Part shown: in pieces, positions 8,927-28,571 of the stretch
How the letters are laid out: the number at the start of each line of letters is the position of its first letter
How positions within the stretch are numbered: position 1 is the stretch's first letter
Assembly: GCF_009708005.2 (NCBI RefSeq)
Contig: NZ_CP052757.1
Span: forward strand, 1,178,001-1,242,000
Direction of reading: 5' to 3'
From: Cellulosimicrobium protaetiae
Lineage (GTDB): Bacteria > Actinomycetota > Actinomycetes > Actinomycetales > Cellulomonadaceae
DNA: 64,000 bases
Position numbers and translations under genes: made by a program
The notes under the pieces: generated by a model
Seen by the model: the letters and a program-made list of their open reading frames with translations, nothing else
Told to the model about the DNA's origin: nothing
The model's database searches: none

Positions 8927-9219
8927 ACCGGCGGTCGAGGGAGCTCGACAGCCCGCCTCCGTGTCCACCCGTCGGACGCCGGGCGCGCCGACGTCGTGAA
9001 TTCTCCGTTTCCGCGCGTGAACGCCTCGTTTCCGGCCCGTGCGCCTCTCCGCCGCGGGGAGCGCTCACCCGGCGGGGTGCGACGACGTCCGACCGGGCCG
9101 GGAACGGCACCGCACCAACGATCCGGGTCGCCACGACGGCGCAGCGCCGCGCCCCGCCCCGGACGTTCACATCCGGCAGGGCGCAGCATCGACCTCGTGA
9201 CGCGCCCCTCGCGTGACCC

Positions 9220-9248
9220 GTGACAAGGCCGCCGCGCACCGCTACGTT
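9220..9248 (+). promoter_or_regulatory. Sigma-70-like promoter of the glucan operon
   Basis: GTGACA (9220-9225), 17-bp spacer, TACGTT (9243-9248). If used, transcription would start near 9255, leaving an untranslated leader of about 290 nt before the GT2 ATG at 9549. Confidence 0.5.
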
Positions 9249-9297
9249 CGGCGCAGACGACGAGGTGGCCCGCTGGTGCGGGCCGCCTCGACCCGTC

Positions 9298-9348
9298 TCG
9301 GCCCACGTTCGACCTCGGCCCGCGTTCGACCTCGGCCCGCGTTCGACC
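9298..9348 (+). repeat. Three tandem 17-bp repeats in the GT2 leader
   Basis: TCGGCCC(A/G)CGTTCGACC at 9298-9314, 9315-9331 and 9332-9348; the last two copies are identical. They fall in the gene-free stretch 8927-9548, which otherwise shows no convincing ORF. They could be regulator sites or part of a structured leader. Confidence 0.9.
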
Positions 9349-9393
9349 GCCCCGGTCGTACCGCACGAGTCGCTCGGCACCGCCGCACGGCAG

Positions 9394-9424
9394 CACCACG
9401 TCACGACACGCACCACGTCACGAC
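9394..9424 (+). repeat. 14-bp direct repeat pair in the GT2 leader
   Basis: CACCACGTCACGAC occurs at 9394-9407 and 9411-9424, again with a 17-bp period, matching the spacing of the tandem repeats 50 bp upstream. Confidence 0.85.
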
Positions 9425-9548
9425 GCCGACGACGTCGCCGCACCCGGGCTCTCGACGACCCCGGCGGGCCCGCCCGCCGTCGTCCGCCGTCGGCCCGCCC
9501 GCGACCCCCGGGAGCCTGTGGATCCCGTCGAGAGCCGGAGGACACGCG

Positions 9549-11450
9549 ATGGCCGTCTCCGAGTTCGACCGCCTGGTCGTCACGCCCCGCCGCACTCAGC
9601 ACGCGCGGCCCGCGCCGATCGGCCCGAGGGCCGACGCCGACCGCCCCGCCGGCCCGCCGCGCGACGAGAACTCCGCCGCGCGCTCGCCGTCGCTCGTCAT
9701 GATCATGCTGCTCGCGACGCTCGGCGTCGTCGCGTACGCGGTGTTCCTGCTCAACCCCGCCAACCGCGGGGACGCCCTGCCGTACGTCATGGTCATCACG
9801 GCCGAGTCGGTGCTCGTCGCCCAGGCCCTGCTGGCGATGTGGACGGTGCTGTCGAGCGGCCACGACCCGCGCGGGTTCTCCTTCCACCACGCGAAGGACC
9901 GCCTGTTCGACGTCCCCGAGATCATCCGCGACGGCGCCGAGGACGACCCGACGCGCTGGAACCTCTACCTGCACGACCGCCCCGTCACGGTCGACGTCCT
10001 CATCACCACGTACGGCGAGGACCTCGACACCATCGCGCGCACGGTGCGGGCCGCCGTCGCGATCCGCGGCACGCACCGCACCTGGGTGCTCGACGACGGG
10101 CGCTCCGACGACGTCCGCGACCTCGCCGCGCAGCTCGGCGCCCGGTACGTGCGGCGCCTGTCGAGCAACGGCGCGAAGGCCGGCAACGTCAACCACGCGC
10201 TCGCGATCGCGAAGGGCGACTACTTCGTCATCCTCGACGCCGACTTCGTCGCCAAGCCCGACTTCCTCGTCGAGACCGTGCCCTTCTTCGTCAAGGACGA
10301 CGTCGCGTTCGTCCAGACCCCGCAGACGTACGGCAACCTCGACAACCTCATCTCGCGCGGCGCCGGGTACATGCAGGCCGTGTTCTACCGGTTCGTGCAG
10401 CCGGGCCGGAACCGCTTCAACGCCGCGTTCTGCGTCGGCACCAACGTGATCTTCCGCCGGGCCGCGATCGACGACATCGGCGGCATGCACACCGACTCCA
10501 AGTCCGAGGACGTGTGGACGTCGCTCATGCTCCACGAGCGCGGCTGGAAGACCGTCTACATCCCCACGACGCTCGCGGTGGGCGACACCCCCGAGACCGT
10601 CGAGGCCTACACCAAGCAGCAGCTGCGCTGGGCCACCGGCGGGTTCGAGATCCTCCTCCAGCACAACCCGCTCAGCCCGCGCCGCACCCTCACGCTCGAC
10701 CAGCGGCTCCAGTACACCGTCACCGCGACGCACTACCTCGCGGGCATCGCACCGCTCGTGCTGCTGCTCGTCCCGCCGCTGCAGATCTACCTCGACCTCA
10801 CGCCCATGAACCTCACCATCTCGTGGGGCACGTGGCTGCTCTACTACGCCGGGTTCTACGTCCTGCAGATCGCCATCGCGTTCTTCACGCTCGGGTCGTT
10901 CCGGTGGGAGGTGCTCATGCTCGCGTCCGTGTCGTTCCCCATCTACACCAAGGCCCTGTGGAACGCGCTGACCGGCAAGGAGCAGGCCTGGCACGTGACC
11001 GGGAGCAAGGGCAGGGTCACGTCGCCGTTCAACTACATGATCCCGCAGGTGCTGTTCTTCGCGTTCCTGCTCGTGACGTCGGTGGTGGGGGTCTGGAAGG
11101 AGTGGGGCGACCCGATGCCGAGCCTCGCGCTCGCGTGGAACGTCACGAACACGGTGATCCTCGGGGCGTTCGTCGTGACGGCTCTCCGGGAGTCGCGGGC
11201 GGCTCGGCTGGTCGTCCAGGAGGGTGGGCGTTCCGTCCGGCCACCCCACCTCGCCACCTCGCGGTCGGCTCACCCGGAGTCGTCTCCGGCCTCGTGGTCG
11301 GCCCGACCGGCGTCGTCGGTCGTCGACGGGGCGTTGTCGGCGCAGCTCGGCGTCGAGGTGACGGTCGGCGCCCCGACGCGGGCCGGGCGGCGGAGGGCGC
11401 GCCGTGACGAGAGCTCGTCGACGTCTGGACCTACCGGAGGTGTCGCATGA
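9549..11450 (+). CDS. Family 2 processive glycosyltransferase (cellulose/curdlan synthase-like)
   Basis: 633 residues from ATG 9549. Two N-terminal TM helices (about 48-65 and 74-95) precede the GT2 catalytic domain with the processive D,D,D,QxxRW set: TYGED (D158), DAD (230-232), SED (D321) and QQLRW (357-361). Further TM helices (about 390-560) form the polymer channel. An Arg/Ser-rich tail ends the protein. No PilZ domain is visible, unlike cellulose synthase BcsA but like curdlan synthase CrdS, which is of similar length. The enzyme would polymerise UDP-sugar and extrude the chain across the membrane. The stop overlaps the adaptor gene (ATGA). The GH81 partner suggests a beta-1,3-glucan product (inference). 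Confidence 0.9.
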   Translation: MAVSEFDRLVVTPRRTQHARPAPIGPRADADRPAGPPRDENSAARSPSLVMIMLLATLGVVAYAVFLLNPANRGDALPYVMVITAESVLVAQALLAMWTVLSSGHDPRGFSFHHAKDRLFDVPEIIRDGAEDDPTRWNLYLHDRPVTVDVLITTYGEDLDTIARTVRAAVAIRGTHRTWVLDDGRSDDVRDLAAQLGARYVRRLSSNGAKAGNVNHALAIAKGDYFVILDADFVAKPDFLVETVPFFVKDDVAFVQTPQTYGNLDNLISRGAGYMQAVFYRFVQPGRNRFNAAFCVGTNVIFRRAAIDDIGGMHTDSKSEDVWTSLMLHERGWKTVYIPTTLAVGDTPETVEAYTKQQLRWATGGFEILLQHNPLSPRRTLTLDQRLQYTVTATHYLAGIAPLVLLLVPPLQIYLDLTPMNLTISWGTWLLYYAGFYVLQIAIAFFTLGSFRWEVLMLASVSFPIYTKALWNALTGKEQAWHVTGSKGRVTSPFNYMIPQVLFFAFLLVTSVVGVWKEWGDPMPSLALAWNVTNTVILGAFVVTALRESRAARLVVQEGGRSVRPPHLATSRSAHPESSPASWSARPASSVVDGALSAQLGVEVTVGAPTRAGRRRARRDESSSTSGPTGGVA

Positions 11451-12178
11451 CCTGGTCGAACCGGATCCGACTCGTGGGCGGGCTGCTCGTGGTCGTGCTC
11501 GTGTGCGCGGCGCTCACGCTCGTCATGAACCGGCGCCTCGGGCAGGCGACGAGCACGACCGCGACGATCCGCGCGGAGGTGCTCGACGTCGGCAGCGACT
11601 ACGCGGGGACCGTCACCGCGGCGGAGGTCGCCGAGGGGGACGAGGTCGCCGCGGGCGACCCGCTGTTCACCGTGAGCAGCCTGACGCTCCAGCACGACAT
11701 CGCGCTCGGCCTCGTCAGCGCCGACACCTCCGCGTACCAGGTGGCACCCGACGGGACCATCACGCTCGTCGCGCCCTACGACGCCGTGGTCACCCACGTC
11801 GCGGCCCGCGAGGGAGGGTTCGTCCAGGCGGGCGAGGTCGTCGCGTCGCTCGAGCGGGAGGGGTCGCTGTTCGTCGACGCCCGCCTCACTCTCGACCCGA
11901 GCGACTTCGCGCGCGTGCGTCAGGGCGCGGAGGTCACGGTCGTCCTGCCGAACCAGGCGGAGGTCGTGGGCGAGGTCGCGTCGGTCGCGGTGCAGAACAC
12001 CGCCAACCAGGCGGAGGCCACGGTCGAGGTCACGAGCGACGCGCTCGTGCGCGGCGCGGAGCACGGTCTCGTCGCCTCGGGCACGCCCGTCACGGCGAGC
12101 ATCGAGCTGCATGACGACGGCCCGCTCGCCGGGGTCGACGAGTCGTTCGGCGCGTTCCTCCGCAAGGTGGGGCTGTGA
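11447..12178 (+). CDS. HlyD-like single-TM adaptor protein
   Basis: 243 residues. One N-terminal TM helix (about 8-27), then an extracytoplasmic domain built of a split lipoyl/barrel-sandwich hybrid motif: AEVLDVGSDYAGTVTAAEVAEGDEVAAGDPLF pairs with ITLVAPYDAVVTHVAAREGGFVQAGEVVASL. A beta-barrel region follows. This is the membrane-fusion (HlyD) architecture without the long coiled coil. In rhizobial mixed-linkage glucan synthesis a similar protein (BgsB) partners the GT2 synthase. It overlaps the genes on both sides, so it is probably a subunit or export partner of the synthase. Confidence 0.82.
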   Translation: MTWSNRIRLVGGLLVVVLVCAALTLVMNRRLGQATSTTATIRAEVLDVGSDYAGTVTAAEVAEGDEVAAGDPLFTVSSLTLQHDIALGLVSADTSAYQVAPDGTITLVAPYDAVVTHVAAREGGFVQAGEVVASLEREGSLFVDARLTLDPSDFARVRQGAEVTVVLPNQAEVVGEVASVAVQNTANQAEATVEVTSDALVRGAEHGLVASGTPVTASIELHDDGPLAGVDESFGAFLRKVGL

Positions 12179-14334
12179 CGCCCCGCCGGGGTCGACCCGT
12201 GCGTCGCGAGGTCGACCTCCCGAAGGTCCATCTCGGTCGTACGGGCCGATCTCGCGGCTGGACAGCCGTGGCGGTGCTCGCGACGGCGACCCTCGTCGCC
12301 GGGTGCGGGTTGTTCGAGTCGGATGCGGCGCCCGGGCCGACCGGTGCACCCGGGGCGGGCTCCTCCGTCGGGCACCCCGCCGCGGACCTGACGGGCGCGG
12401 CGCCCGACGTGGACCCGTCGATCCTGCCGCAGGAGTCGGTCGCGCCGATGCCCGCGGCGCGGCTCGCCGACGGGCTCGTCCCGCCGACCAACCGGTGGTT
12501 CTCGGGGCTCGTGTTCGGCGACGAGCCGCTGCCCGTGTTCCCCGTGCCGCTCGCGTTCGGCGTGACCGACGGGGGGTTCGCGTTCGGCCTGCCCGACGTC
12601 GAGATCACCGAGCAGTCGATCCTCGGCCCGTTCGTGCCGCAGGTCGGCGTGGACGTCGGGGCGGCGACGGTCGTCGTCACCGCCTACGACACGACGTCCG
12701 TCACGCTCGACCTGCTCGACGGCGGGGGCACCGCCCTCGGCACGGTGACCCTCGTGGAGGGGTCGCCCGTGCTGCGGTACACCGCGGCGACCGACCAGTC
12801 GGCGGCGCTCGCCGTCGCGTTCGACGCGGTGGACGGGCTCCTCGCGGCCGAGGCGGGCGGGCGCGAGTACGTGCTGGTCGGGGCCGAGGACGCGCTGTCC
12901 GACGACGGCCGGTCGCTCGACCTCTCCGCGGGCGACTCCGTCGCGTGGTTCCCCGTGCCCGACGACGCCCCGGACGGCGCCGTCGCGACGCTCGCCGAGG
13001 CGGCCGCGCACCCCGTGACGGGCACGACGCTCGCCTACGGCGTGGCCGACGACGCCGTGACCACGGCCATCACCTACGAGACCGGCGGCGACGCGCCGGG
13101 GTCGGGGACCGTCGTCGTGCGCCTGCCGCACCAGGGGGAGAGCGACGGCGCGACGTGCGACCTGGGGACCTACGCGACCGTGCGCGGGACCGTCGACGTC
13201 TGCACGGCGAGCACTCTCGCGTGGACGAGCCCCGCCGTCGAACCCGCCGGGGCGCTCGACGTCACCGGGCTGGGCGAGGAGGAGAAGACCGAGCTCGCCG
13301 ACCAGGTGCGGGCCGACGCGTCCGCGCTCGAGCCGCGGCCGTCGGACACGTACTTCGGCGGCAAGGCGCTCGCGCGCGACGCGAACCTGCTCTCGCTGGC
13401 CGAGCAGCTCGGGCTCGACGACGTCGCGACGCCGCTGCGCGAGGACCTCGCCGCCGCGCTGCGCGAGTGGGCCGGGCCCGCGGGGTGCGAGGAGAGCGAC
13501 GCGCGGTGCTTCGTCTACGACCCCGAGGTGCGCAGCGTCGTCGGCAGGACGCCGTCGTTCGGCTCGGACGAGCTCAACGACCACCACTTCCACTACGGGT
13601 ACTTCCTCTACGCCGCGGGCGCGGTGGCGGCCGGCGACCCGGCGCTCGCGGCCGACCTCGCGCCCGTGCTCGACCTGCTCGCGGCGGACGTCGCGGCGGG
13701 CGCGAGCAGCGGCGACTTCCCGGCCCTGCGCGTGTTCGACGCGTACGCGGGCCACTCGTGGGCGTCCGGGTACGCACCGTTCGCGGACGGCAACAACCAG
13801 GAGTCCGCGTCCGAGGCGGTGTCCGCGTGGAACGGGCTCGCGCTGTGGGCGCAGGCGTCGGGGGACGCGACGCTCGAGACGCAGGCGCGCTGGCTGCTGT
13901 CCGCCGAGGCGGCGTCGGCGCGCGCGTACTGGACCGACTTCGACCGCGACGACCCCGCCCTCGACGGGTTCGGGCACACCGTGACGTCGCTCGTGTGGGG
14001 CGGCAAGCGCGACTGGGCCACGTGGTTCAGCGCCGAGCCGAGCGCGATGCTCGGCATCCTCGTCCTGCCGATGCAGCCCGTCGCCGGGTACCTCGCGGGC
14101 GACCCGGAGCGCGTCCGGGCCAACCTCGACGAGGCGCTCGGCGGCCCGCGCGACGACCCCGCGTCGTGGGACGTGATGTTCGGCGACCAGCTCCTCATGT
14201 ACGCGGCGCTCGCCGGCCCGGACGACGCCGCGGCAGCACTGGACGTCGCCCGGGCCCTGCCGGACGAACGCGTCGACGACGGCAACACCCGCAGCTACCT
14301 CCTCGCATGGCTCCTGGTGCACGCGACGGCGTAG
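12175..14334 (+). CDS. GH81 endo-beta-1,3-glucanase, predicted lipoprotein
   Basis: 719 residues from GTG 12175 (GTGA overlap with the adaptor). A signal segment ends in the lipobox LVAGC, so Cys44 would be lipidated and the enzyme anchored outside the cell. The body matches glycoside hydrolase family 81: PTNRWFSGLVF near the start, NDHHFHYGYFLYAAG with the probable acid Asp469, and DGNNQESASEA with Glu543 and Glu547, equal in spacing to the catalytic Glu pair of fungal Eng2. The family cleaves beta-1,3-glucan (laminarin, curdlan) by inversion. Its place third in a glucan-synthase operon parallels BcsZ in cellulose operons, suggesting editing or release of the nascent polymer. Confidence 0.9.
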   Translation: MTPRRGRPVRREVDLPKVHLGRTGRSRGWTAVAVLATATLVAGCGLFESDAAPGPTGAPGAGSSVGHPAADLTGAAPDVDPSILPQESVAPMPAARLADGLVPPTNRWFSGLVFGDEPLPVFPVPLAFGVTDGGFAFGLPDVEITEQSILGPFVPQVGVDVGAATVVVTAYDTTSVTLDLLDGGGTALGTVTLVEGSPVLRYTAATDQSAALAVAFDAVDGLLAAEAGGREYVLVGAEDALSDDGRSLDLSAGDSVAWFPVPDDAPDGAVATLAEAAAHPVTGTTLAYGVADDAVTTAITYETGGDAPGSGTVVVRLPHQGESDGATCDLGTYATVRGTVDVCTASTLAWTSPAVEPAGALDVTGLGEEEKTELADQVRADASALEPRPSDTYFGGKALARDANLLSLAEQLGLDDVATPLREDLAAALREWAGPAGCEESDARCFVYDPEVRSVVGRTPSFGSDELNDHHFHYGYFLYAAGAVAAGDPALAADLAPVLDLLAADVAAGASSGDFPALRVFDAYAGHSWASGYAPFADGNNQESASEAVSAWNGLALWAQASGDATLETQARWLLSAEAASARAYWTDFDRDDPALDGFGHTVTSLVWGGKRDWATWFSAEPSAMLGILVLPMQPVAGYLAGDPERVRANLDEALGGPRDDPASWDVMFGDQLLMYAALAGPDDAAAALDVARALPDERVDDGNTRSYLLAWLLVHATA

Positions 14335-25310: not shown

Positions 25311-26005
25311 GCGAGGACCCGGCGACCCACCACGTGCTCGTCGTCGACGACGACCCCGGCCTCCTGCGCGCGATCGCGATCACGCTGCGCACCCACGGCT
25401 GGAAGGTCAGCACCGCCACGTCGGGCGAGGCGGGTATCGATGTCGTCGCGACGGGCGCACCCGACGTCGTGCTGCTCGACCTCGGCCTGCCCGACCTCAG
25501 CGGGTTCGACGTCATCCGTGCCGTCCGGGCCTGGAGCGCGGTGCCGATCGTCGTGCTCTCGGCCCGCCACCTCGGCGACGACAAGGTCGACGCGCTCGAC
25601 GCCGGGGCCGACGACTACGTCACCAAGCCCTTCGCGATGCCCGAGCTCATGGCCCGGCTGCGGGCCGCCGTGCGGAGGTCGGCCGGTGCCGCCCGGGACG
25701 GGACCGCCGTCGTCGAGGCGGGCGACCTGCACATCGACCTCGCGCGACGCCGCCTCCTGCGGCGCGGGGCCGAGGTGCGGCTCAGCCCCACCGAGTGGGC
25801 GCTCCTCGAGATCCTCGTCGCGCAGCGGGGCCGCGTCGTCGAGCGCGAGCACCTGCTGCGCGAGGTGTGGGGCCCGACCGCCACCCGGGACACCCACTAC
25901 CTGCGGGTCTACCTCGCGCAGCTGCGCCGCAAGCTCGAGGACGACCCCGCCGCGCCCCGGCACCTCATCACGAGCCCCGGGATCGGCTACCGGTTCGAGG
26001 AGTGA
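25307..26005 (+). CDS. kdpE: KdpE response regulator
   Basis: 232 residues from GTG 25307 (GTGA overlap with kdpD). The receiver domain has the acidic pocket DDD (14-16), phospho-acceptor Asp58 in LLDLGLPD, Thr/Ser switch VLSA and Lys in VTKPF. A winged-helix OmpR domain (about 135-230, LSPTEWALLEIL, LRVYLAQLRRKLE) follows. It activates kdp transcription, probably at the two direct repeats at 17713-17751. Its 3' end overlaps the convergent gene by 19 bp. Confidence 0.97.
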   Translation: MSEDPATHHVLVVDDDPGLLRAIAITLRTHGWKVSTATSGEAGIDVVATGAPDVVLLDLGLPDLSGFDVIRAVRAWSAVPIVVLSARHLGDDKVDALDAGADDYVTKPFAMPELMARLRAAVRRSAGAARDGTAVVEAGDLHIDLARRRLLRRGAEVRLSPTEWALLEILVAQRGRVVEREHLLREVWGPTATRDTHYLRVYLAQLRRKLEDDPAAPRHLITSPGIGYRFEE

Positions 26006-26826
26006 CCCGCCGCGTCGTCGACCAGGCGCGCGAGCTCGCGCACGACGGCGCCCGGCAGCGCGGGCGGGAACAGCAGCGCGCGCTGGAGCTCGCCCGCGCG
26101 CCAGCCGTCGCACGCGAGCGCGGCGAGCACGAGCGACGACGGCGCGCCCTCGTCACGCCACGCGCGCAGCACGAGCGCGTGCACCGCGTGCTGCCCCTCC
26201 GGGACATCGTCGCGCGCGACCCCGCCCAGCGCGTACAGGCGCAGGAGAGCGGCGGCCTTGCGCGAGTCGTCGAGCGCCGCGACCGACGCCCCGACCGCCG
26301 CGCGCGACGGGTCGAGACGTAGCGGCGAGAGGTCGTCGAACCCGGACTGCAGGACCTCGAGCGCGACGTCGTCGACGAGCGTCTCCGCGTCGCCGAACAT
26401 CGAGCGCAGCGTCGACTCGCTGCGCTCGCAGCGGCGGGCGACCGCGGCGAGCGTGACGTTCTCGACCCCCTCCTCGAGCGCGACCCGCAGGACGGCGTCC
26501 ACGAGCGGGCGCTCGTCGTCGCGGAACGGGTCCTCGTCGAGGTCCACGTCGCGGAAGACGACGGCGCTCGCCGGCGGGCGCACGTCCGCGTACCGGGAGA
26601 GGTCGCCGAGCAGACCCTCCCACTCGCCCTCGGTGAGGGCGTACGCGTCCTGGTAGAGGCCCAGCCACGTCCCTTCGAGCGCGAGCGCCGCGACCCACGT
26701 GCGGGGGTCGAGCCCCGCCGCGTCGCCGGGCGCCCGGGCGCCGTCCGGGGTCGGGATCGCGGCGACCCACTCGTGCAGAGCGGCCCTGGCCGAGCGCGTC
26801 GCGTCGCTCCGGTCGGGCGTGGACAT
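25987..26826 (-). CDS. TetR-like regulator with HTH in mid-protein
   Basis: 279 residues from ATG 26826. A TetR-type helix-turn-helix lies at about residues 108-152 (LVDAVLRVALEEGVENVTLAAVARRCERSESTLRSMFGDAETL), then a helical domain (152-279). Normally the HTH is N-terminal; here about 105 Trp- and Asp-rich residues (TWVAALALEGTWLGLYQDAYAL) precede it. This could be a second TetR-like core that has lost its HTH, or a separate sensing domain. It overlaps kdpE tail-to-tail by 19 bp and has no obvious partner gene. Confidence 0.7.
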   Translation of the reverse strand: MSTPDRSDATRSARAALHEWVAAIPTPDGARAPGDAAGLDPRTWVAALALEGTWLGLYQDAYALTEGEWEGLLGDLSRYADVRPPASAVVFRDVDLDEDPFRDDERPLVDAVLRVALEEGVENVTLAAVARRCERSESTLRSMFGDAETLVDDVALEVLQSGFDDLSPLRLDPSRAAVGASVAALDDSRKAAALLRLYALGGVARDDVPEGQHAVHALVLRAWRDEGAPSSLVLAALACDGWRAGELQRALLFPPALPGAVVRELARLVDDAAGHSSNR

Positions 26827-26891
26827 GACCGTCACCTCCGTGGTCGGGAAAGGTGGGGTCGAGCCTAGCCGCCGGCCCCCACGGACTCCCG

Positions 26892-28571
26892 TCAGGGCCG
26901 GGGGACGTCGCGGCGCCGGAAGCCCACGAGACCCAGCGCGACGAGCCCGACGGCGAGGAGCGTGAGCCAGACGAACGGCCACGGCTCGACGTCGGCCCCG
27001 GGGAGCTGCGGGACGTGCCAGTACGGCGAGACGCCGCTCGCCCACGACGGCAGGTCGAGCAGGGCGCCGAACATCGTCACGACGAACGAGAAGGCGAGGA
27101 GCGCCCACGCGAGCGCCGCGAGCCCGGGCCGCGAGCCGAAGGCCGCGACGGCGACCCCGGTGACGACCGCGACCGCCGGGAGGTAGGCGAAGGACGCGCC
27201 GAGGTAGGCGCCGAACCCGAAGGCGTCCTCGCCGACGCTCAGCGCGCCGAGCCACAGCCCGACCGCGCTCACGGCGAGCAGCACCGACGTCCCGAGCAGC
27301 GTCACGACGAGCTGGGCACCCAGCCACCGCACGCGCCCGACCCCGGTCGCGAGGACGGGCTCGAGCCGTCCCGCCGTCTCCTCGCCGCGGGCCCGCTGGG
27401 CGGACGCGACCGCGAACCCGCCCGCGCCGAGCCCGAGGAACAGCGCCATGATCGCGACGAACCCGGCAACGAGGTCGGTCGGGTCGCCGAGCATGGCGGC
27501 GATGTCGGGGTTGTCGGCGACCATGTCACCCACCGAGTCGACGAACGTCCCGCACGCGAGCGCGGTGACACCCACCCCGACGCCCCAGGCCAGCACCGAC
27601 GCGCGCTGCTGGCGCCACGCGAGGGCGAACGGGCTCGCGAGCCACGCGGCGGCGTCGGGCCTCCCGGCGCGCGGCGGGACGAGGCCGGCGCCGAGGTCGC
27701 GCCGGGCCGCGAGCGCCGCGCCGAGGGCGAGGAGCAGCACGACGAGAGCGACGGAGAGGCCGAGCGGCCACCAGCGCAGGTCGACGAACGCGCGGATCTG
27801 CTGCGCCCACCCGATGGGGGAGAGCCACGAGACCCAGCTCCCGTGCTCCTCCTGGACGTCGCCGACCGCGCGCAGCAGGAACGCGATGCCGAGCACCGCG
27901 AGCGCGAGGCCGCTCGCGGCGCGCGCGTGCTCGGTGACCTGGCTCGTCACGATCGCGACGGCGGCGAACACGAGCCCGGTCACGCCCACGGCGGCGCCGA
28001 GCGCGAACGAGTCGACGACCTCGAGACCGGCGGCTGCGAGGACGGCCCCCGTCGCGAGCGCGACGGCCGCGTTCGCGACGAGCGCCGCGAGGAACGCCGC
28101 CGTGGCGGGGGCGTGGCGCCCGACGACCCCGGCCCGGACGAGCTCGGCGCGGCCGGTCTCCTCCTCGGCGCGGGTGTGCCGCACGACGAGCGAGATGCTC
28201 ATGATCGCGACGGCGACGATGACGGTGAGAGCCATCTCGTTCGCGATCATCGCGCCGAGCGTGTAGTCCTCGATGCCGTACTGCGGTCCGGACAGCATGA
28301 TGCCCGCGGGGCTCGAGACGAGCGCCGCGCGCCCCTGCCGGTCGGCCGCGGTGGGGTAGAGGGTGTCGAGCGCGACCGCGGCGTACCCGAACAGCAGCGC
28401 GACCGAGGCGGTCCACACGGGGATGCGGACGCGGTCTCGGCGCAGGGCGAAGCGGAGGAGCGTGGCCCAGCCGGTGGCCGCTCGCCCGCGCCGGTGCGGC
28501 TCGGGGGTGACGACGGCGGTGCGCCGTCCGCGCTGTGGCGCCGCCGTGCGGGCGGTCCCGGGGGCGCTCAC
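26892..28571 (-). CDS. ABC exporter permease (duplicated six-TM, ABC-2 type)
   Basis: 559 residues from GTG 28571, overlapping the ATPase stop (GTGA). About twelve TM helices in two similar halves: each half has a [53 protein letters not shown]-type segment, the E(E)TGR motif marking the coupling region. This is the duplicated ABC-2 permease seen in actinobacterial exporters of antibiotics or polyketides. Substrate unknown. Encoded last in the TetR-ATPase-permease operon. Confidence 0.88.

Follow-up and report, generated by a model that had tools for sequence, protein, structure and literature searches.

A conserved operon of a GT2 synthase, a HlyD-type adaptor and a GH81 glucanase in Cellulosimicrobium protaetiae, a candidate system for a curdlan-type beta-1,3-glucan

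The operon described here lies in a 64,000-nucleotide stretch of the 4.78-Mb genome of Cellulosimicrobium protaetiae (positions 1,178,001 to 1,242,000 of contig NZ_CP052757.1; hereafter, the window). It spans positions 9549-14334 of the window and encodes, in this order, a processive synthase of glycosyltransferase family 2 (GT2), a HlyD-family adaptor and a glucanase of glycoside hydrolase family 81 (GH81). Sequence comparisons suggest, with a probability of roughly two in three, that these three genes serve a cell-surface beta-1,3-glucan polymer of the curdlan type, and the operon could be a candidate for the curdlan genes of Gram-positive bacteria. The original prediction had proposed that it makes, exports and trims a beta-1,3-glucan. 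This proposal has gained from the conservation of the triplet, from the constancy of GH81 beside the GT2, from the pairing of HlyD-type and GT2 proteins in known systems, and from the presence of the triplet in a putative Cellulomonas flavigena genome, while the likening of the synthase to the curdlan synthase CrdS did not stand as far as clade membership is concerned.

The overlaps that had been noticed at the junctions are confirmed and measure four bases each, as ATGA between the GT2 and adaptor genes and as GTGA between the adaptor and GH81 genes (Table 1). A start of the synthase gene at 9220 was rejected, since the GTG at that position is out of frame with this gene. The open frame of the GT2 extends over 9213-11450, and the ATG at 9549 is its likely and best start, because GGAGGA lies upstream and because the alignment to the resulting 633-residue protein begins within the first four residues at 67 of the 114 places compared (window included).

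Table 1. Genes of the operon, in window coordinates
Feature	Position	Strand	Basis
Processive GT2 synthase, 633 aa	9549..11450	+	Pfam, motifs; hydrophobic segments flank the catalytic domain; without PilZ
Short HlyD/membrane-fusion-type adaptor, 243 aa	11447..12178	+	Pfam HlyD_3, lipoyl halves, barrel
GH81 endo-beta-1,3-glucanase	12175..14334	+	Pfam Glyco_hydro81C; lipobox Cys44; triad D469, E543, E547

A search of 200 genomes of the family for GT2 matches with E below 1e-200 gave 81 places in 80 genomes, the window included. At the 80 other places the HlyD gene was always present and GH81 was found in 79, the exception (L048) lying at a contig edge. The order sample (396 genomes for GT2, 392 for GH81) contained 51 genomes with a GT2 orthologue, a count that omits six weaker matches (2.5e-113 in one case, and between 9e-63 and 6e-67 in the other five). 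Outside the family there are 33 such genomes, with one place each, and both partners accompany the GT2 in 32 of them, the last (L156) being at a contig edge. A script check that included the window found the triplet complete, in order and on one strand, at 112 of 114 places, the other two being contig ends; chance is therefore not a reasonable explanation of the arrangement. Under a stricter rule, applied to the best 80 of 104 named loci found, the ordered triplet was recovered in 77, and the rest comprised two contig ends and one tandem arrangement. These loci belong to Cellulomonadaceae, Promicromonosporaceae, Sanguibacteraceae, Demequinaceae, Beutenbergiaceae and Microbacteriaceae, together with two Propionibacteriales records, so that the triplet, once sought in other Micrococcales, appears as a conserved unit in six of their families, in which GH81 stays beside the GT2. 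For each of the three proteins, the two Propionibacteriales loci are closest to one another, followed by Microbacteriaceae, a pattern that fits descent or transfer of the triplet as a unit. The pairwise distances of the three proteins correlate across 77 of the 80 named loci (Spearman 0.64-0.74), as would also be expected from plain vertical descent.

GH81 genes were found in 104 of the 200 family genomes and in 61 of the 392 order genomes. All 51 genomes of the order sample with a GT2 orthologue have one, ten further genomes have GH81 without that orthologue, and among the 33 genomes with the orthologue outside the family, 30 have a single GH81 match and three have two. At two loci (L158 and L164) the complete triplet is preceded by another GT2 gene paired with an adaptor gene. 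Tandem GT2 copies with a second adaptor were seen at L149, L151, L158, L163, L164, L167 and L177, of which L167 also has a second GH81; these seven genomes are all of one genus, putatively Demequina.

GH81 is a beta-1,3-glucan family. The third protein of the window operon matches Glyco_hydro81C (PF17652) with 176 bits, over the cut-off, and its eight PDB matches are all GH81 or endo-beta-1,3-glucanase entries, including BH0236 (best E 3.4e-65). The lipoprotein that had been read from the sequence was recovered with its lipobox cysteine and with Asp469, Glu543 and Glu547, which we take to be the catalytic residues, and this triad is intact in 112 of 112 GT2-linked GH81s. The linked open reading frames have a median of 713 residues, and 49 of the 112 carry a lipobox-like motif as scored by a crude rule; some others (for instance that of L066) begin with a hydrophobic stretch without such a motif. 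Unlinked GH81s (n=23) have a median of 1018 residues, none has a lipobox-like motif, and one has Gln in place of Glu543, while second copies (n=8) have a median of 1081 residues and the motif in one. A tree of 60 GH81s, with 29 of the 112 linked ones, all 8 second copies and all 23 unlinked ones, has two sides. One holds 20 unlinked proteins and 7 second copies (support 1.0), and the other holds the 29 linked proteins, one second copy (that of the tandem operon L167) and three unlinked proteins, L320-L322 (support 0.95). The GH81s of the operon are thus separated, as a clade, from most of the unlinked enzymes, which are larger.

The synthase has GT2 domains of up to 101 bits in Pfam, over the cut-off, and the same scan lists no PilZ domain for it. 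Hydrophobic segments precede (43-101) and follow (390-546) the catalytic domain, which carries DDG (182-184), KAGN (210-213), DAD (230-232), QTPQ (256-259), SED (319-321) and QQLRW (357-361), so that the processive motif set without PilZ is borne out. The top NCBIfam match is the cellulose synthase CelA model TIGR03030, at a score below its cut-off (247 against 699 bits), and in the PDB bacterial cellulose synthases come closest (E about 9e-50). Identification of the protein as a cellulose synthase was rejected on the grounds of that cut-off, the missing PilZ and QTPQ. The adaptor exceeds the Pfam cut-off for HlyD_3 (54.5 bits) and consists of a single hydrophobic segment at the N terminus, a pair of lipoyl half-motifs separated by about 30 residues, and a barrel, in agreement with the lipoyl-hybrid fold first assigned to it. 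A long helical hairpin is not present between the two lipoyl halves, whose matches lie at 48-77 and from 106.

The phylogenetic position of the synthase was examined in a tree of 78 proteins that included CrdS, BcsA, BgsA and 25 of the 113 other triplet GT2s, with no rows lost by coverage; hyaluronan synthases, Tts and RiGT2 were left out of it. The triplet GT2s group with L179 (support 100), whereas CrdS, BgsA and their kin form a group of their own (support 100) that joins BcsA and L205 (support 96), with the window clade outside. Grouping with the cellulose synthases was thus not found, and the GT2 of the window is a separate actinobacterial lineage, outside the CrdS clade.

Residues at the mouth of the channel were compared in the CrdS numbering given in the accessible part of PMC6821405. 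Gln237 and Gln259 are kept in 114 of 114 triplet GT2s and position 270, Lys in CrdS, is basic (Arg in 112, Lys in 2); at all three positions the triplet clade resembles CrdS and BgsA and differs from BcsA. QTPQ is found in 104 of the 114, QTPH in none, and its final Gln in all of them. Among 13 named references of beta-glucan synthase type, Val279 and the Ser of SED are shared by the triplet clade with CrdS alone. By aligned columns, Val279 is absent from all 26 phylum-level GT2s (L180-L205), 5 BcsA and 2 BgsA proteins, and from 4 of 4 other alpha-proteobacterial HlyD-linked GT2s; a Ser before ED occurs in one of the 26 (L201) and in none of 11 BcsA, BgsA and other alpha-proteobacterial HlyD-linked references. 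Thr281 is not special, since 18 of the 26 phylum-level GT2s and 4 of 4 other alpha-proteobacterial HlyD-linked GT2s have it. At CrdS Trp422, Glu439 and His442 the window has Ile, Leu and Ala in one alignment, and the same columns are gapped in the alignment of the 114 GT2s.

Some sister GT2s have neighbours of another kind. Those of L294 (3303-7235) and L298 (3505-7311) are fused to an acyltransferase-3/SGNH protein, and those of L295, L297 and L201 adjoin one; GH26 lies near the GT2 in L294 and L298, and GH6 in L295. It is possible that these sister proteins are synthases of acylated polysaccharides with matching hydrolases. L179, the nearest outgroup to the triplet clade, combines Arg at position 260 with Val279 and SED, and neither a GH81 nor a HlyD match was found beside it. 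The 27 loci L179-L205 gave no GH81 match, and no adaptor match with the window HlyD query, a query that also misses CrdA and BgsB.

The curdlan operon crdASC was identified on an Agrobacterium tumefaciens plasmid (L113), where a gene annotated as HlyD family, a GT2 gene and a gene of hypothetical product follow one another. All ten residues checked are present in this GT2 at the CrdS numbers given in the accessible text of PMC6821405, and the first gene has 1455 bases, close to the 1458 stated for crdA in that of PMC10819609; L113 was taken as crdASC for these two reasons. CrdA exceeds the Pfam HlyD_3 cut-off (24.3 against 22.2 bits), BgsB is also of the HlyD family, and CrdC matches no Pfam family. 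The comparison with the pair of a HlyD-like protein and a GT2 in BgsB/BgsA, drawn at the outset, therefore holds for bgsBA and extends to the curdlan operon, given that CrdA is of the HlyD family. CrdA alone has no match to the adaptor profile, and a profile of eight CrdA/BgsB-type sequences matches the adaptor group over 116 columns (E 4.4e-8), a match that, compared without a generic membrane-fusion control, may be general to the fold.

Like the window, crdASC (Agrobacterium L113; Rhizobium L302) has a GT2 of similar size without a PilZ match and a HlyD-family partner gene, and CrdS and the window GT2 have QTPQ, Gln259, the basic residue at 270, Val279, Thr281 and SED in common. Unlike the window, its GT2 belongs to another clade, its gene order differs, CrdC stands where the window has GH81, and CrdA is longer (484 residues against 243). 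The bgsBA operon for mixed-linkage beta-glucan (Sinorhizobium L112, Rhizobium etli L304) also has a HlyD-family gene that overlaps the GT2 gene, and Sinorhizobium BgsA has no PilZ match; it differs in that no hydrolase is annotated directly beside it, in the 410 residues of BgsB, and in CCGS and ITED of BgsA against (C/S)VGT and SED in the triplet clade. The bcs cellulose operons (BcsA, BcsB and GH8; for instance L286) likewise combine a synthase, an accessory protein and an endo-hydrolase, but BcsA has PilZ, as described in the accessible part of PMC6821405, and QTPH, the hydrolase is GH8 rather than GH81, and the window has no BcsB. The mixed-linkage glucan synthase RiGT2 of Romboutsia ilealis is, like the window protein, a Gram-positive GT2 beta-glucan synthase; according to the accessible text of PMC10374906, it differs in its C-terminal PilZ domain, needed for activity.

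Curdlan has been documented in the relatives of the window organism. According to the accessible portion of PMC3544764, curdlan is abundant in Cellulomonas flavigena and scarce in C. fimi, each genome encodes two GT2s that are 35-39% identical to the Agrobacterium curdlan synthase, and the way in which C. flavigena reuses its own curdlan is unclear. The triplet is present in genomes putatively assigned to C. flavigena, C. fimi and C. gilvus. One of the two flagged GT2s is very probably of the window type, because the two GT2 places lie at a distance that agrees with the gene numbers given there; Cfla_3154, Celf_3456 and Celgi_1506 would then be its orthologues, very probably flagged in 2013 as distant CrdS homologues. 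That text, in its accessible part, notes their distant similarity to CrdS and not the operon with adaptor and GH81. The second GT2 of the cellulomonads (L291-L293, L301) has the BcsA-like motifs FCGS and TED, and in L291 a long insert is aligned between its catalytic motifs. The exopolysaccharides of Cellulosimicrobium cellulans MP1, whose genome carries the triplet (L208), are treated in PMC8325422, where the accessible text deals with levan and the terms 'GH81' and 'cellulose synthase' are absent from it. An operon of GT2, HlyD and GH81 was not found described in the literature, searched mostly without subscription papers or supplements.

Several observations weigh against a curdlan-type product. 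A constraint uniting the window clade and L179 with CrdS was rejected by the approximately unbiased test (p 1.75e-12; 41 of the 78 rows, LG+G4, without the PgaC outgroup and without a mixture model), so that membership of the CrdS clade was given up; similarity to CrdS cannot, for this reason, prove the linkage. Arg260 of CrdS is replaced by Ala, Ser, Thr or Glu, and His374 by Val, Gly or Ile, in 114 of 114 triplet GT2s. Position 260 corresponds in our alignment to BcsA Glu299, at which, according to the accessible text of PMC6821405, CrdS and BgsA have no residue other than Arg. Val279 is also present in 4 of 7 sister GT2s (L294-L300), and the Ser of SED in 5 of 7. The use of CVGT and SED as proof of a 1,3 linkage was dropped, and these residues are a hint, since sister proteins, some of them beside GH26, GH6 or acyltransferases, have them too. 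No homologue of CrdC was matched in the 60 order- and phylum-level loci L146-L205, a search that did not take in the window and the 80 family loci. Three loci, L328-L330, around the unlinked proteins L320-L322, hold a GH81 of operon type without a GT2 or HlyD match nearby, which implies that GH81 can persist after the synthase is lost or be present before it; in L328 and L330 it is flanked by the luciferase-like gene and the permease that also flank the window operon, in L329 only the permease was found, and a signal sequence is not evident by eye in the three frames. Cellulosimicrobium is also known to degrade curdlan, which fits a feeding role of GH81. Finally, C. gelida is reported without curdlan exopolysaccharide in the accessible part of PMC3035266, and its genome carries the triplet (L227); the operon may be silent in this species, the polymer may not be seen as exopolysaccharide, or the product may be different.

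These points bear on three other explanations. The best placed of them, although unlikely, is that the product of the GT2 is a different beta-glucan, cellulose-like or of mixed linkage, or a polymer of a sugar other than glucose, and that GH81 either attacks only part of this product or has been retained next to the GT2 for other reasons. The position of the clade outside the group of BcsA, BgsA and CrdS, the CelA model as top match and the hydrolases beside the sister GT2s are in its favour, but the prevalence of QTPQ over QTPH with its invariant last Gln, the lack of a listed PilZ, and a GH81 that has its own clade and is mostly the only one of its genome outside the family argue against it. 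Less likely still, the curdlan synthase of C. flavigena would be the second flagged GT2, and the triplet would make something else. Two GT2s were indeed flagged per genome, proteins of the second type have partial matches to CrdS, and C. gelida would be accounted for; yet this type has Cys279, Ser281 and TED, like BcsA, in 4 of 4 cases, the insert seen in L291 speaks against it, and neither adaptor nor glucanase is among the three neighbouring open reading frames scanned at L291 and L292. It is improbable that the GT2 and adaptor make a glucan while GH81 feeds on outside beta-1,3-glucan of fungi or algae, as the frequency of GH81 in the family, often as a larger unlinked enzyme, the three genomes that retain it without GT2 and HlyD, and seven Cellulomonas-type loci with an unlinked-type GH81 close to the operon might suggest, given the translational overlap in the window, the ordered triplet, the distinct clade, the shorter form and the frequent lipobox. 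In those seven loci (L060, L062, L063, L064, L065, L067 and L086) the enzyme is a second GH81, of the larger type.

For a beta-1,3-glucan operon, we infer a model in which the GT2 would polymerise UDP-glucose and pass the growing chain across the membrane by a channel of its own. The HlyD-type protein would be held in the membrane by a single helix, sit on the outer face and contact the synthase as a short sleeve or co-polymerase, in the place held by BcsB, CrdA or BgsB in Gram-negative bacteria; a long hairpin may be superfluous in cells that lack an outer membrane. From its tethered position on the cell surface, GH81 would cut beta-1,3 chains and thereby trim, release or recycle the polymer. 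Trimming has a known parallel in the hydrolases needed for cellulose synthesis (PMC5407803, accessible part), and polymer turnover would fit equally well. A wider proposal, which we regard as about evenly balanced, is that GT2-type beta-1,3-glucan synthesis arose at least twice in bacteria, in the CrdS line and in an actinobacterial line that gained Val279, SED and QTPQ independently, and that the actinobacterial version, a self-contained Gram-positive synthase with a minimal HlyD sleeve and a surface-tethered GH81, underlies Cellulomonas curdlan.

Around the operon, some genes recur among the 114 loci (luciferase-like in 47, permease in 40, LytR_C in 37); a wider operon with them was considered, and they were taken as local synteny and not counted as parts. 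Promoter and terminator scans found nothing. Elsewhere in the window, positions 26001-28000 have a strong AT skew of 0.306, the next highest 2-kb step having 0.100.

Curdlan of Gram-positive Cellulomonas is documented, and its genes have only been guessed at, as far as the accessible text of PMC3544764 goes. A compact operon that includes a beta-1,3-glucanase would answer both the question of the curdlan genes and that of curdlan reuse, for which GH81 is a simple candidate in C. flavigena. The triplet provides more than 100 natural sequences for asking which residues set a 1,3 or a 1,4 linkage, with a lineage apart from CrdS as an internal control. If the proposal is true, a HlyD-type protein would serve a polysaccharide synthase in cells without an outer membrane, in hosts that include many soil and plant-associated actinobacteria.

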